This document shows, one piece after another, positions 8,526 through 21,614 of a DNA stretch of 64,000 bases. Source of the DNA: Nitrososphaerota archaeon (GTDB lineage: Archaea > Thermoproteota > Nitrososphaeria > Conexivisphaerales > DTJL01). The first letter of the stretch is position 1; each line of letters begins with the position of its first letter. Below the pieces are notes generated by a model. It saw nothing but the letters and a program-made list of their open reading frames with translations. It did no database searches and was not told the DNA's origin. The DNA is taken from contig JAJPJS010000027.1 in NCBI GenBank assembly GCA_021324115.1, positions 1 through 64,000 on the forward strand. Direction: 5' to 3'. The position numbers were made by a program, and so were the translations under genes.

Positions 8526-8585
8526 CCATGGTGATGACAAAACAGCTAAATCTGGATTGTCGGAAGGGGCAGCTGGCTGAGATGG
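8526..8585 (+). ncRNA. Candidate box C/D guide RNA
   Basis: CCAT at 8526-8529 can pair with ATGG at 8582-8585. Just inside that stem are a perfect box C (GTGATGA, 8531-8537) and box D (CTGA, 8577-8580). A weak D' (CTGG, 8552-8555) and a weak C' (TGTCGGA-like, ending about 8564) leave a 12-base spacer before box D, the spacing usual in archaea. It ends immediately before the TTG start at 8587, so it could instead be plain 5' leader. I could not assign a methylation target. Confidence 0.3.
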
Positions 8586-8586
8586 G

Positions 8587-9573
8587 TTGCCTCAATGCAA
8601 GATATGCAATAAAAAATTCAGCACTCTTGACTCACTGGAACAGCATCATAGGACGGTACACCCGAAGATAAAATACACGGGCCCCAAAAAGGAAATGCCA
8701 AAACACTTCTACACCACCATATTCATCATAATTCTGGTCGCTGGAGGAGGAGTGGGGTACCTTGTATACTCCCAGCTACCGCACGGGAACAATAACCCCG
8801 GAATACTCGGGACCCCCATATCGTCAGACTTTTACGGGAACCTGACTTCTGTCACAGATGCCACGCTGAATTCGGTGGCAAACGTGAGTCTTTCTTACAT
8901 ACCAAGTACAATTTCGGGTCCTCCCTTGAATAAAAACGGTCTGCCAGAAGTGCTTTACATCGGCGGGGAGTTCTGCCCCTTTTGTGCCGGTCTTAGATGG
9001 AGCCTCTCAATAGCGCTCTCAAAATTCGGAAATCTCTCGGGTCTTGAGTACATGCTATCCGGCGTTAATGACGGTAACCTTTCCACTGTGACCTACAGCC
9101 ACGTAAACTTTACAAGTAGCTACATATCTTTCGTGGCAATAGAAGCCTTTGACAGGCAGAGAAACAACTATCAGCCTGTGCCGTCACAGGACCAGCAACT
9201 CTGGAGCCAGTATGACAGTAGCCTGGGCATACCCTTCCTTGATATTGGCAATCAGTACGTTCTCCTGAGTTCGCCATTTTCGCCTACGATTCTGACGGGT
9301 TTAAGTTGGGAGCAAATCTACTCACAACTCGATAACGTTAACAACTCGGTATCAAAGCAGATTGATGCTGGTGCAGCATCAATCATAGCGGCAATTTGCA
9401 AGGTGGATGGTGGAAAACCTGCGAATGTCTGCGGACAGCCTTACGCTCAGTTGGCACTCTTGTCTATGAATCCGAGTCCTGTAGTGGCCTATTCGACTGG
9501 GCAGAATACCTTATACGGAGTCGCGCAGGCGGAAGCTTATTCACCCAAATCGGGGGCAAGGGATGCTTTCTGA
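8587..9573 (+). CDS. C2H2 zinc finger - membrane anchor - thioredoxin-like (DUF929) protein
   Basis: Three parts are visible. Residues 4-25 form a textbook C2H2 finger: C4, C7, F11, L17, H20, H25. One transmembrane helix spans about 42-62. An extracytoplasmic part follows, with GGEFCPFC (C130-x2-C133) and the RWSL stretch typical of DUF929, a thioredoxin-fold family. The finger would lie in the cytoplasm and the CxxC domain outside. The VKOR-like gene starts inside its stop codon, so the two probably form an exported-protein disulfide system. The start is TTG; no in-frame ATG precedes the finger. What the finger binds is unknown; it could be nucleic acid, protein or only zinc. Confidence 0.85.
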   Translation: MPQCKICNKKFSTLDSLEQHHRTVHPKIKYTGPKKEMPKHFYTTIFIIILVAGGGVGYLVYSQLPHGNNNPGILGTPISSDFYGNLTSVTDATLNSVANVSLSYIPSTISGPPLNKNGLPEVLYIGGEFCPFCAGLRWSLSIALSKFGNLSGLEYMLSGVNDGNLSTVTYSHVNFTSSYISFVAIEAFDRQRNNYQPVPSQDQQLWSQYDSSLGIPFLDIGNQYVLLSSPFSPTILTGLSWEQIYSQLDNVNNSVSKQIDAGAASIIAAICKVDGGKPANVCGQPYAQLALLSMNPSPVVAYSTGQNTLYGVAQAEAYSPKSGARDAF

Positions 9574-9986
9574 ACAGACTTTCGCTTGCCTTCATATCTC
9601 TTAGTGTCGTTGGCATAGTAATAGCGATCCTGCTGACTTATGAATATGTGACTGCGAACTTCACATCGTGCAACATAAATAGCTTTTTCAGCTGCGGGTC
9701 GGTGGCGAGCAGCCCGTACAGCAAGTTCTTTGGCATCCCCATGTACATTTTCGGTCTGATATGGTTCCCGCTGCTGTTCATCATTTCTTCTGCTTACAGT
9801 GGGTTCGCTCGAAAGGAATTGAATGCCTATGTCCTGGTTCCGCTCCTTCTTCTAGGAGACATATTTACCATCTACCTCTGGTACGAGCAGCTTGTCCTGA
9901 TCGGCAAATTGTGTCCTTACTGTGTGAGTCTCTATTTCGTGAACTATATACTCACGGTCCTCGCGCTCCTTTCGCTAAGGGAGTAG
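9570..9986 (+). CDS. Vitamin K epoxide reductase (VKOR)-like membrane thiol oxidoreductase
   Basis: VKOR-family proteins reoxidise thioredoxin-like partners using quinone, the archaeal counterpart of DsbB. The translation has four or five membrane helices, the loop cysteines C34 and C42 followed by the family pattern SPYSKFFGIP, and the active CxxC C115-P-Y-C118. No ATG, GTG or TTG occurs in this frame between 9396 and the first helix. The best start is CTG 9570-9572, which overlaps the preceding TGA as CTGA, like the common ATGA coupling. A -1 frameshift joining it to the DUF929 protein, or a sequence error, is the alternative. Numbering here assumes the CTG start. Confidence 0.82.
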   Translation: MNRLSLAFISLSVVGIVIAILLTYEYVTANFTSCNINSFFSCGSVASSPYSKFFGIPMYIFGLIWFPLLFIISSAYSGFARKELNAYVLVPLLLLGDIFTIYLWYEQLVLIGKLCPYCVSLYFVNYILTVLALLSLRE

Positions 9987-9992
9987 ACCGAC

Positions 9993-10364
9993 CTATTTTG
10001 CTCTGAGCTCCTTTTCTATGAATTCCTTCAGAGCACTGGCGTTGTTGTAGACTTCTTCTCTAGAAGAAAAAAGCAGTGTCACGTTTCCGCCAGCCTTGGA
10101 ACTCTTCTCTCGGACGATTCCGACCAGTTTCTTGAATTCATCTTTTCCATTTATTTCTTTGAAGAATCGCTTCTTGAACTCCTCCCACTTCTCTGGGTCA
10201 TGGGAGAACCATTTGCGTAGGTCGTCCGAAGGTGCAATATCTCTGTACCAGGCTTCCATTCGCAGATCCTCCTTTCTGATTCCGCGGGGCCATATCCTGT
10301 CCACGAGGATACGAACACCGTCGTCAGGGGACGGGGGCACATATACACGCTTCGTTTTGAGCAT
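9993..10364 (-). CDS. DUF488 family protein
   Basis: Small soluble protein of the DUF488 (YeaO-like) family. The hallmark RILVDRIWPRG appears near the N-terminus, followed by WYRDIAPS and WFSHDP. The family is widespread and its biochemical role is not settled. The 123-residue length is normal. I chose ATG 10364 rather than 10373 because a minus-strand TATA-like box (CTTAAAAA read on the plus strand at 10387-10395) lies about 27 bases upstream, giving a leaderless mRNA. It converges with the VKOR gene, only six bases away. Confidence 0.85.
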   Translation of the reverse strand: MLKTKRVYVPPSPDDGVRILVDRIWPRGIRKEDLRMEAWYRDIAPSDDLRKWFSHDPEKWEEFKKRFFKEINGKDEFKKLVGIVREKSSKAGGNVTLLFSSREEVYNNASALKEFIEKELRAK

Positions 10365-10460
10365 GAAAAACAAAACCGCAAGGTTACTTAAAAAATCATC
10401 CTGAAATTCTCCAGTAATCGCGAGACAAGGTTAAATGAGTGAATGAGGGCGGCCGCTCTA

Positions 10461-17512: not shown

Positions 17513-19057
17513 ATGAGCAAAACTGTTTTTACTGAAATTAGCCCGTCCGAATTTTTCTACCGGAATCGCGACCTTGCCGGGTTTAGCAACCCCTCGAGGG
17601 CACTCTATTCTACCGTTAGGGAGCTCGTCGAAAATTCATTGGACTCCTGTGAGCTGTATACAATTCTTCCCGAGGTCTACGTGAGAATAACCGCCGCCAG
17701 AGGCAGTGAAGATAAACCCGACCCAAAGCACTATGAGATCGTGGTAATGGACAATGGTTCTGGCATAGAGGGAGAGCAGGTGCCGAAAGCGTTCGGTAGA
17801 ATATTCTACGGTTCAAAATACAGGCTGAGGCAGGCCCGCGGCATGTTTGGAATGGGTGGAACCATGTCGATTCTATACGGTCAAATCACCACCAACAAAC
17901 CTGTAGAAATATCCAGCAGCGTCGACGGTGTGAAATTTGAAAAATTCTTGATGATGATAGATATCGAAAAGAACACGCCCATCATACTTGAACGTCAGAA
18001 AAGTGAGGCCAACGGATGGCGGGGGACAAGGGTGAGGCTAACTTTGGAAGGAGACTACTTTAGATCCTCAACCAAGATATTCGACTACTTCAAGAATACG
18101 GCTCTCGTAACCCCTTATGCGAATATTACATTTATCGACCCATTGGGAAAGCTTGTTCATTATACCCGGGGAACGAACGTTATGCCCGACCCGCCGAAGG
18201 AAACTCTTCCGCACCCACACGGGATAGATGTGGAAGCCGCAAAACGCATGATCAGGTTATGGAAGGGCGGGCCTATTTCAAAATTCATGGTGCAATCGTT
18301 TCATCGGGTCGGAGACAAGATCGCACTTGATTTCTTGAAGTACTCTGGCATACCCCCGGAAACAGACCCGAAGTCGCTTTCCAATGAGGACCTTGTGAAA
18401 TTCACCGAGGCTCTGCATGACTATGAAGGGTTCCTGCCGCCCGATGGTAAATGCCTTTCACCAATGGGGGAAGAGATCTTTTCCGCTGGGATAGTTAAAG
18501 AACTCTCTCCCGAATTCTTCACCGTAACCGCCAGGGAACCGGCTGCATACTCCGGTTTTCCCTTCATCGTAGAAGTGGGGCTCGCTTATGGCGGCAAGAT
18601 CAACCAGCAGGGAATCAAACTGTTAAGGTTCGCTAACAGGATACCGTTGTTGTACGATGAGGGAAGCGATGTTTCTTGGAAGGTTTTATCGGATGAGATA
18701 GATCTGAAAAGGTACAGGGTGGATCAGGACACTCCCCTGATCCTCATGACACATATCTGTTCAACCAAGGTACCGTTCAAAACTGTGGGGAAGGAATACA
18801 TCGCGGACAGACCAGAAGTTGAGAAGGAGCTCAGAAATGGTATACGCGAGGTGTTCAGGAAGCTGCAAATCTACCTGAGCAGGGTTGGTTCGATGGAAAA
18901 GCAGAGGAAGAAGATGAACATATACTCCAAGTACATGCCCCTCATTGCAAGGTTCTCAACTTCTCTGATTGGGGCAAAAAAGTATCCTCCGTATAACAAG
19001 CTGATCGGTCTAGATATGTTCCAGGATGATGGTGAAGAGGATGTCGAAGATTCCTAA
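17513..19057 (+). CDS. top6B: DNA topoisomerase VI, subunit B
   Basis: ATPase and strand-passage subunit of type IIB topoisomerase, which relaxes supercoils and decatenates DNA. GHKL motifs are clear: RELVENSLDSCE (Asn/Glu for Mg-ATP), VMDNGSGIE, RGMFGMGGT with the ATP lid, and the later transducer lysine region. 514 residues is usual. ATG 17513 is preceded by GACTAATG; there are about 130 bases after the KH gene, so it may have its own promoter. Subunit A starts 17 bases before its stop. Confidence 0.97.
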   Translation: MSKTVFTEISPSEFFYRNRDLAGFSNPSRALYSTVRELVENSLDSCELYTILPEVYVRITAARGSEDKPDPKHYEIVVMDNGSGIEGEQVPKAFGRIFYGSKYRLRQARGMFGMGGTMSILYGQITTNKPVEISSSVDGVKFEKFLMMIDIEKNTPIILERQKSEANGWRGTRVRLTLEGDYFRSSTKIFDYFKNTALVTPYANITFIDPLGKLVHYTRGTNVMPDPPKETLPHPHGIDVEAAKRMIRLWKGGPISKFMVQSFHRVGDKIALDFLKYSGIPPETDPKSLSNEDLVKFTEALHDYEGFLPPDGKCLSPMGEEIFSAGIVKELSPEFFTVTAREPAAYSGFPFIVEVGLAYGGKINQQGIKLLRFANRIPLLYDEGSDVSWKVLSDEIDLKRYRVDQDTPLILMTHICSTKVPFKTVGKEYIADRPEVEKELRNGIREVFRKLQIYLSRVGSMEKQRKKMNIYSKYMPLIARFSTSLIGAKKYPPYNKLIGLDMFQDDGEEDVEDS

Positions 19058-21614
19058 AGGGGTAGCGGAACAGAGGAAGAAAGAGATTCTGGAAGAATTC
19101 AGGAGGTTGGGCAAGGAGGCTTATGAAGCGATAGTGGCGGGACAGTTTCCGGAAATCACGCTTCCCAGTCGGTCTGTAAACAATCTTGTTTATGACGAGA
19201 AGCTGAAGCAGTACATCCTTGGGAGCAACTCCGTAAAGAGGTCATCGAGAAATGTGAAGCACATAAGACCGTACACCCAGCTGCTTTGGCTGGCGTTCTT
19301 TGCAAACCAACTTGTAAGCGAGGACCGAACTTCGACACTGAGGGACGTATTCTATTCGGCTCAGGCTTTCAACATGGAGTTCACAGACCAGAGTGAATCT
19401 GACGAGATAATCACAGACCTTGAGACCGCTCTCATGAAGGCGAGAGAAGATTTCAACGTCTATCCGGATGAGAGGAGTGCGATCTTCGGAAACATGACCA
19501 TTGAATACACGAAACCCGGCTATGAGGGGAAGAGGCAGGACCTGAGTTCTCACCCTGATGGACTGATGATTGGTCCAGCTCTTACTACAGCCGAATTCGT
19601 AGAAACCGATGCAGAAATGGTGATCGCCATAGAGAAGGGTGGTCTCTTCACAAGATTCGTCGAAGAAAAGGTTCATGACAGGTTCAAAGCTCTCCTTATA
19701 AACACCGCAGGTCAGCCGCCAAGAAGCACGAGGTACGTGATAAGAAGGCTGAATCAGGAGCTTGGTCTGCCAGTCTACCTTCTCGCCGATGCGGACCCGT
19801 GGGGCGCACATATCTGCATGGTTATCAAGAGTGGATCGGCCAACGCCGCCCATCTTAGAGAGCTTACGACACCCTCTGCCAAATGGCTGGGGGTGTATGC
19901 TAGTATAACGGGCGATGAGTCAGTTCTTGTCGAAATCGATGGGCTTGTCAGAAATGAACCGATACAGGAGTTATTCTCACGCTACAGAAAAGCGGGAGGC
20001 TCAATATTCGAGCCTCCTGTTGTGGAGCGTGTCGGCACCTTCTGCTGCGATGAGAATCTGCGGACCGGGGTCATGCCGGTTGCATCATTCTCAAAGCATA
20101 GATACAGTGGTGACTTGTTTGAGATTGTAACGGAGCATGGATTCCGCGTGAAGACAACGGGAAATCATTCTGTGCAGGTCTTCAACAGAGAAAGAAACAA
20201 GCTCGAATCTTGTGAAGTATCTTCGCTACGCGAAGGGGATTTGCTTGCAACTGCAGCCAACTTCCCTAACAACCAGAGTCTTCATGTCATTAATCTGGCA
20301 GAATTAATCCTAAAGGAATGCCCGGAAGATGCAAGAATGATCTACTGGGAAAAGGCCCTCGAGCCTTCGAGCAGAAGTGGGAGAAGCCCATATCATAGGG
20401 TTCGGAAGATCGTAAAACCGGTAACAGACTACATAAGTTCCGAGCCGCCGAATGTAGGATATCTGCGTTATGGGAGGTCTGAGGAAAGACTGCCCGTACT
20501 GGTGCCGGTTTCGGACAAACTGGTACGGATCCTTGGATACATGACTGTGAGAGCGGACCTTAGGTACCGGGGGGCATCGGTTAGATTGATGTTTCAGGCT
20601 GACGAAAAGGAAGAGGCGATTGATGCTATAGATTGCCTCCGGGATGTATTCAACGTGGAGGCCTCTTTTGATACGGCCGGAAGATCCATTGTCGTGGATT
20701 TCAGAAACCGAATACTGGCTCTAATATTAAGGAAGGTCTTCCGCATGTCAGATCAGGTCATGGGGAAGCGCGTGCCGTTCATACTCTTTAACGTGAACGA
20801 CAAGTTGAAGATGGAATATCTGGCCGCCTGCGGTTATAATGAGTTAGATGACAGTTCGATAAAGATGGTTTTTGGGGCTCAACAGACGAAATTGGCATCG
20901 GATGTTGTGGTACTTTTCAAACAATTAGGGTACGTTCCGAGAGTTGGCCTAACAGGGGATCGGCTGGTCATAAGGGCGAAACCGTTTGGTGCATTATTGC
21001 ATGTCGTGGGACAGGACGACAAAGCTGATCTATCGAATACTTCAGTGGCCGATGACTGTCAATCAGTAACAATATTCGACGGTGCTGCTGGCTTTCACAC
21101 CAAGTACAGTACGGCTTCGAGTTCTGTCGTTGATGACGACGGAAGATTCACCCAGGAAGGCTGCTTGACCTGGTCAGACATTACCGGACGAAAACCAGCC
21201 ATCACAGTCGAAGGGGACGGATTCGAAACCAACTACAGCTCGATTCTGCTGTCTGATGTCCTGCTTGTGCCTGTGTTGAAGATAACCAATTTAGGCAAAT
21301 GCGCAGATCCTGTTTATGACCTTGAGGTGGAAGATATACACACATTCACAGGAGGGCTTGGCGGTCTTGTTCTACATAATTCTGACATACAGAAGTATGA
21401 ATTACCTCATGACAAGCTTACAGACCTAGACATCAAGAGGGTGCATGAACTTCAGAAGGACCCGCGTTATGAAGAACAGCTCTGGAAGGATGAACTCGAG
21501 TGTTTCCTGAAGTACAAGAAGAAGGCAGAACAGGAAGCTTTCTCAAGGTACGGGTTGACGTACATAGTTGACAAGTACTTGGTTGATAAGCTGGAACAGG
21601 CAAAGAGCATGTGA
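19041..21614 (+). CDS. top6A: DNA topoisomerase VI, subunit A, interrupted by an intein
   Basis: Spo11-like DNA-cleaving subunit. The catalytic tyrosine is in STLRDVFYS, and the Toprim acidic residues are in IAIEKGG and LLADADPWG. After AKWLGVYA (residue 287) the sequence is interrupted by 493 residues and resumes with SDIQKYELPHD. Removing the insert leaves 364 residues, the normal length, and restores the family junction GVxxSDI. ATG 19041 is preferred; the longer frame from 19026 adds MMVKR with no support. The gene overlaps top6B by 17 bases. Function requires protein splicing. Confidence 0.96.
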   Translation: MSKIPKGVAEQRKKEILEEFRRLGKEAYEAIVAGQFPEITLPSRSVNNLVYDEKLKQYILGSNSVKRSSRNVKHIRPYTQLLWLAFFANQLVSEDRTSTLRDVFYSAQAFNMEFTDQSESDEIITDLETALMKAREDFNVYPDERSAIFGNMTIEYTKPGYEGKRQDLSSHPDGLMIGPALTTAEFVETDAEMVIAIEKGGLFTRFVEEKVHDRFKALLINTAGQPPRSTRYVIRRLNQELGLPVYLLADADPWGAHICMVIKSGSANAAHLRELTTPSAKWLGVYASITGDESVLVEIDGLVRNEPIQELFSRYRKAGGSIFEPPVVERVGTFCCDENLRTGVMPVASFSKHRYSGDLFEIVTEHGFRVKTTGNHSVQVFNRERNKLESCEVSSLREGDLLATAANFPNNQSLHVINLAELILKECPEDARMIYWEKALEPSSRSGRSPYHRVRKIVKPVTDYISSEPPNVGYLRYGRSEERLPVLVPVSDKLVRILGYMTVRADLRYRGASVRLMFQADEKEEAIDAIDCLRDVFNVEASFDTAGRSIVVDFRNRILALILRKVFRMSDQVMGKRVPFILFNVNDKLKMEYLAACGYNELDDSSIKMVFGAQQTKLASDVVVLFKQLGYVPRVGLTGDRLVIRAKPFGALLHVVGQDDKADLSNTSVADDCQSVTIFDGAAGFHTKYSTASSSVVDDDGRFTQEGCLTWSDITGRKPAITVEGDGFETNYSSILLSDVLLVPVLKITNLGKCADPVYDLEVEDIHTFTGGLGGLVLHNSDIQKYELPHDKLTDLDIKRVHELQKDPRYEEQLWKDELECFLKYKKKAEQEAFSRYGLTYIVDKYLVDKLEQAKSM
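19902..21380 (+). mobile_element. Intein in topoisomerase VI subunit A (degenerate homing endonuclease)
   Basis: In-frame, 493 residues. It begins with Ser1 (SITGDESVLVEIDG, block A), has TGNHSVQV as block B with its conserved His, and ends VYDLEVEDIHTFTG (block F) and LVLHN before a Ser +1 (block G). So splicing should use serine at both nucleophile positions. The middle has the layout of a LAGLIDADG endonuclease, but the first motif reads RILGYMTVRAD, with Arg where the catalytic acid should be. The second (LAACGYNEL) is also weak. Splicing looks intact; homing is probably lost. Confidence 0.92.

Follow-up and report, generated by a model that had tools for sequence, protein, structure and literature searches.

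A single-pass membrane protein encoded in the window (the 64,000-nucleotide stretch of Nitrososphaerota DNA analysed here) carries a classical C2H2 zinc finger at its N terminus, then a basic linker, a single membrane helix and a DUF929 domain, and its gene overlaps that of a VKOR protein (Table 1). This layout, the conservation of the finger, the adjacency of VKOR and the recurrence of the same tail on other membrane proteins can be read directly from the sequences. The novelty is the finger and not the pairing of DUF929 with VKOR, and the finger is not specific to that pair.

Table 1. Coordinates of the finger-DUF929 gene, its parts and the adjoining VKOR gene in the window
Feature	Position	Strand	Evidence
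Whole gene: finger, linker, membrane helix and DUF929 (328 aa, TTG start)	8587..9573	+	ORF list, Pfam
C2H2 zinc finger, residues 1-26, putative ligands C4, C7, H20, H25	8587..8664	+	Pfam, AF2, Foldseek
Basic juxtamembrane linker, residues 27-42, KIKYTGPKKEMPKHFY	8665..8712	+	Sequence
Single membrane helix, ~residues 43-66, predicted N-inside	8713..8784	+	Hydropathy, AF2, charges
DUF929 thioredoxin-like domain, residues 109-272	8911..9402	+	Pfam, whole-genome search, AF2
Active-site motif C130-P-F-C133 inside GGEFCPFC	8974..8985	+	Alignment of 15 sequences
Second cysteine pair, C271 and C282	9397..9432	+	Nearly invariant alignment columns
VKOR gene, cysteines C34, C42 and CPYC C115/C118	9570..9986	+	Pfam VKOR, cysteine positions

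The finger-DUF929 protein and its VKOR neighbour

The proposed TTG start holds. TTG 8587 is the sole ATG, GTG or TTG ahead of the finger (the next ATG encodes M37), an in-frame stop (TGA, 8578-8580) lies two codons upstream, and the start is supported because two other genera have ATG at the same residue, followed by the reading MPKC in the start alignment: G004, from the window's own family (67% identity to the window protein), and G246, from another family of the class. The finger itself matches Pfam zf-C2H2 (E 7.5e-6; 26.6 bits, with a cut-off of 25.2), likewise exceeds the cut-off of zf-C2H2_6, and reaches an E-value of 1.2e-5 when searched against the whole genome and is, therefore, not a chance match. 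It follows the classical pattern C-x2-C-x12-H-x3-5-H with the conserved F and L, and the residue numbers given for a perfect finger in the sequence-only reading (C4, C7, F11, L17, H20 and H25) are exact. An AF2 model of residues 1 to 40 shows a hairpin and a helix (14-23) at a pLDDT of ~90; most of its Foldseek matches are C2H2 fingers, often with an rmsd of ~1 Å, the E-values being weak and the model very short. In the full-length AF2 model the finger is left unresolved, because no other row of the alignment carries it.

The sequence-only reading had staked its case on relatives keeping the finger, and all six residues are retained in G004 and G246. Identity to the window protein in these two is 19/26 and 15/26 in the finger, 120/164 and 86/163 in the DUF929 domain, 10/16 and 2/16 in the linker, and 20/51 and 14/55 in the tail, respectively. 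Since finger and DUF929 domain have similar identities, above those of the tail and of the linker in G246, selection has kept the finger about as firmly as it has the catalytic domain. Because two other genera conserve the finger and begin with ATG at that very position, a chance finger or a wrong start is ruled out. A viral or mobile origin of the segment was also considered, but the first 70 residues of the protein had no relative in the viral contigs scanned.

Hydropathy and AF2 (helix at 39-63) bear out the single membrane helix. Positive charges flank it on the N side only, and the positive-inside rule predicts a cytoplasmic finger and a DUF929 domain that lies outside, as had been suggested earlier. 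N-glycosylation sequons are uninformative for an outside location (6 sites versus 3.5 by shuffling, P 0.11).

The outer domain matches Pfam PF06053 with an E-value of 2e-20 (73.8 bits, cut-off 24.6) and scores 7.1e-21 in the whole-genome search. Its CPFC motif, correctly numbered from the start, belongs to a GGEFCPFC stretch that is invariant in 15 aligned archaeal and bacterial sequences, and C271 and C282 are likely to form a structural or shuttle disulfide. In the AF2 model the pLDDT of the domain is mostly 85 to 96; Foldseek matches of the full model to GST, DsbA and thioredoxin lean toward a thioredoxin-like fold, none being significant (E >0.06). DUF929 was assigned that fold in an earlier profile comparison (PMC3091736).

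The neighbouring gene encodes a VKOR by Pfam (PF07884; E 9.3e-26, 91 bits, cut-off 27.5), with the four cysteines expected of a catalytic VKOR (C34 and C42 in the loop, and the CPYC motif), the conserved Ser and an SPYSKFFGIP loop, and matches 4nv2, a VKOR/thioredoxin-domain structure, weakly. It does sit at the DUF929 stop, as had been noted, but its start has to be corrected: the overlap reads CTGA in the VKOR frame, so that translation would begin at CTG 9570 unless an upstream TTG or GTG is used. G004 has ATG in place of this CTG. Genome searches found one DUF929 and one VKOR in the window genome, and a search of the same genome for a Thioredoxin_4-type DsbA found none.

Distribution of the pair and of the finger

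VKOR adjoins DUF929 in ~20 loci that range from this archaeal class to the Actinomycetota and Chloroflexota, nearly all of them without a finger. Because the adjacency is common without a finger in both archaea and bacteria, the pair is best read as an envelope disulfide system of the DsbA/VKOR type. That DUF929 and VKOR form a redox pair is, in our judgment, very probable, and VKOR adjacency together with the predicted thioredoxin-like fold supports the earlier reading of DUF929 as a partner reoxidised by VKOR. In the DsbA/VKOR systems of Actinobacteria, cyanobacteria and archaea, a thioredoxin-fold CxxC protein is combined with a VKOR that has two cysteine pairs, much as the putatively thioredoxin-like CxxC domain is in the window; in contrast, the partner in the window is DUF929 instead of a classical DsbA and has a predicted cytoplasmic C2H2 finger in addition. 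The same DUF929 domain (PF06053) is found in secreted and membrane proteins of Sulfolobus-type archaea and Thermoplasmatales, and the secretome of Picrophilus torridus contains several (PMC8345856).

The finger is far rarer than the pair. Of the two things to be expected in related genomes, VKOR next door proved common, but a finger was present in only 3 of the 67 distinct DUF929 ORFs sampled; it is absent from the other 64 and thus dispensable for the core reaction of DUF929. Most relatives have a plain basic N terminus. No finger was found among the DUF929 proteins sampled from other Thermoproteota; outside the class, in family f40, the sampled copies begin with only a short N terminus and a helix, unlike the window protein; and two genomes of the window's own family (G023 and G026) encode DUF929 without it. 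In a tree of the outer domain calculated without the finger, the three fingered proteins form one group (support 93/91), so the fusion probably had a single origin within DUF929. The G246 contig ends ~374 bp past the finger-DUF929 gene, and VKOR adjacency is out of view there.

According to Pfam, the pair in the window is flanked by an Lhr-type helicase and a DUF488 gene, the latter (9993-10373, minus strand) facing VKOR; G004 (L115) keeps the order Lhr-type helicase, DUF929, VKOR, DUF488. Elsewhere in the window, a topoisomerase VI subunit A-like ORF (19026-21614, plus strand) has an apparent intein, judged by eye, with the junctions ...WLGVYA/SITGDESV... and ...GLVLHN/SDIQKYELP.... A DUF929 protein of the Actinomycetes (L044:2362-3711) may parallel the finger fusion: N-terminal to its membrane segments it gives a weak zinc-ribbon match that stays below the Pfam cut-off.

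The same tail on other membrane proteins

A non-exhaustive profile search of the window genome (G000) revealed at least two more proteins composed of an N-terminal finger, a basic linker, a helix and an outer domain. One has a redoxin with a WCPGC motif (C24:21778-22485, L119), and its locus also encodes MerA (557 bits, cut-off 454), small cysteine-containing membrane proteins and an Lrp regulator that bears a TRASH domain. G246 has this form as well (C11, L117:7271-8053), in a similar locus with a MerA-type oxidoreductase and Lrp regulators, and the two loci possibly represent an archaeal mercury resistance cluster. The finger-redoxin layout is present in these two genomes, four close redoxin relatives (family f11) lacking the finger; G000 and G246 are distant from each other, and both have finger-DUF929 together with finger-redoxin.

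The second protein (C2:280170-280904, L118) carries a domain with the motifs HIHPYL and HTH (HIHPYL...HTHDSSGIIHVES), termed the HxH domain here, for which Pfam and NCBIfam gave no matching family. Its gene adjoins genes for an Lrp regulator with a TRASH domain and for a P-type ATPase with a YHS domain. Among 300 genomes of the class, 114 encode the HxH domain, a finger is present on 11 of the 22 distinct sequences examined, across several families of the class, and well-supported branches of the HxH tree force at least two changes of finger state. No VKOR was seen beside the finger-redoxin or finger-HxH gene in the window genome. The complete genome of another member of the class (G108) had 49 hits with the finger profile at E up to 1, most of them in short ORFs, and one of its loci (L126) encodes a finger and a helix with no outer domain.

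Since finger-helix proteins recur with other outer domains, it seems that envelope redox and metal proteins repeatedly carry the finger as a cytoplasmic tail. A finger specific to VKOR pairing is ruled out, as it is missing from most DUF929-VKOR pairs and the tail occurs elsewhere; for the same reasons, the proposal that finger and VKOR form one signalling design is not supported.

Possible roles of the finger

We propose that the membrane-tethered DUF929 domain faces outside, where exported proteins would exchange disulfides with its CPFC motif, and that VKOR would reoxidise CPFC, as expected from the family, passing the electrons on to quinone. The N-terminal finger would fold around zinc in the cytoplasm and may dock a cytoplasmic partner, through which the enzyme would be placed or coordinated at the membrane; a tail of this type may serve further envelope proteins with redox or metal functions in these archaea. 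Topology, zinc binding, redox activity and docking are what we infer from the sequences and models, and we give the explanation as a whole about an even chance of being right, with docking as the role of the finger a little below that.

C2H2 fingers are mostly eukaryotic and usually discussed as nucleic acid binders. Helix positions −1, 3 and 6 of the present finger are mostly S/T, A/S and Q, which is not the typical base-reading set. These small or polar residues weakly disfavour specific DNA recognition; a DNA-reading finger is not supported by them, so that protein docking is the favoured role. A single finger and basic linker could bind nucleic acid instead.

The finger might also be a small folded cap that needs no partner and fixes the N-inside orientation or shields the N terminus. 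The plain basic N terminus that suffices in most relatives, the patchy presence of the finger in the HxH family and the weak zinc-ribbon match that takes its place in the actinobacterial DUF929 protein would fit such a tail, but a neutral cap needs no conservation of non-ligand positions, and these are conserved between genera about as well as the catalytic domain. We regard it as unlikely.

Less probable still is signalling across the membrane, in which the redox state outside would alter the binding of the finger to DNA or a transcription factor and thus gene expression. The build is that of a sensor, with a zinc module inside, a single helix and a redox domain outside; the finger-redoxin and finger-HxH genes of the window genome are near Lrp/AsnC regulators with TRASH metal-binding domains; and AFV1p06, an archaeal viral protein with one classical-type finger, binds DNA (PMC3541406). 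However, AFV1p06 is a small soluble protein without the fourth His (PMC3541406) and, unlike the window protein, has no membrane helix or enzyme domain. Furthermore, the residues at −1, 3 and 6, the presence of only one finger, the lack of a regulator beside the DUF929-VKOR pair with its helicase and DUF488 neighbours, and a single helix that offers no obvious path for a redox signal all argue against it, and signalling via the finger is possible but unsupported. Membrane-bound ZAS anti-sigma factors such as RsiW also combine a cytoplasmic zinc module, one helix and an outside domain, but their zinc fold and motif differ; the H-x3-C-x2-C motif is absent from the window protein, which gave no match to Pfam zf-HC2, and to our knowledge archaea do not use sigma factors. 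A Pfam scan of the protein gave no HTH match that would indicate a ToxR/CadC-type cytoplasmic winged-helix domain.

The least probable role is that of a metal sentinel, gaining or losing Zn, Cu or Hg and so governing how stable or active its membrane protein is: the MerA locus of the finger-redoxin gene, its counterpart in G246 and the P-type ATPase and TRASH-Lrp regulator beside the finger-HxH gene speak for it, but no metal genes were seen next to the DUF929-VKOR pair, and classical C2H2 sites tend to have a high affinity for zinc.

Our searches of the open-access literature on archaeal membrane-anchored C2H2 fingers, finger-thioredoxin fusions, DUF929 and archaeal VKOR partners found no description of this layout, in agreement with the sequence-only reading. 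In sum, DUF929 joins the likely partners of VKOR, and the C2H2 finger recurs as a predicted cytoplasmic tail of archaeal single-pass envelope proteins. With one tail on three unrelated outer domains, which are thiol-redox domains in two cases and encoded in metal-handling loci in two, a shared partner or sensing role becomes testable. More speculatively, and with perhaps one chance in a few, Nitrososphaeria may have a class of membrane proteins whose cytoplasmic finger is combined with swappable outer redox or metal domains, all docking one cytoplasmic partner and thereby coupling the thiol or metal state of the envelope to the cell interior.
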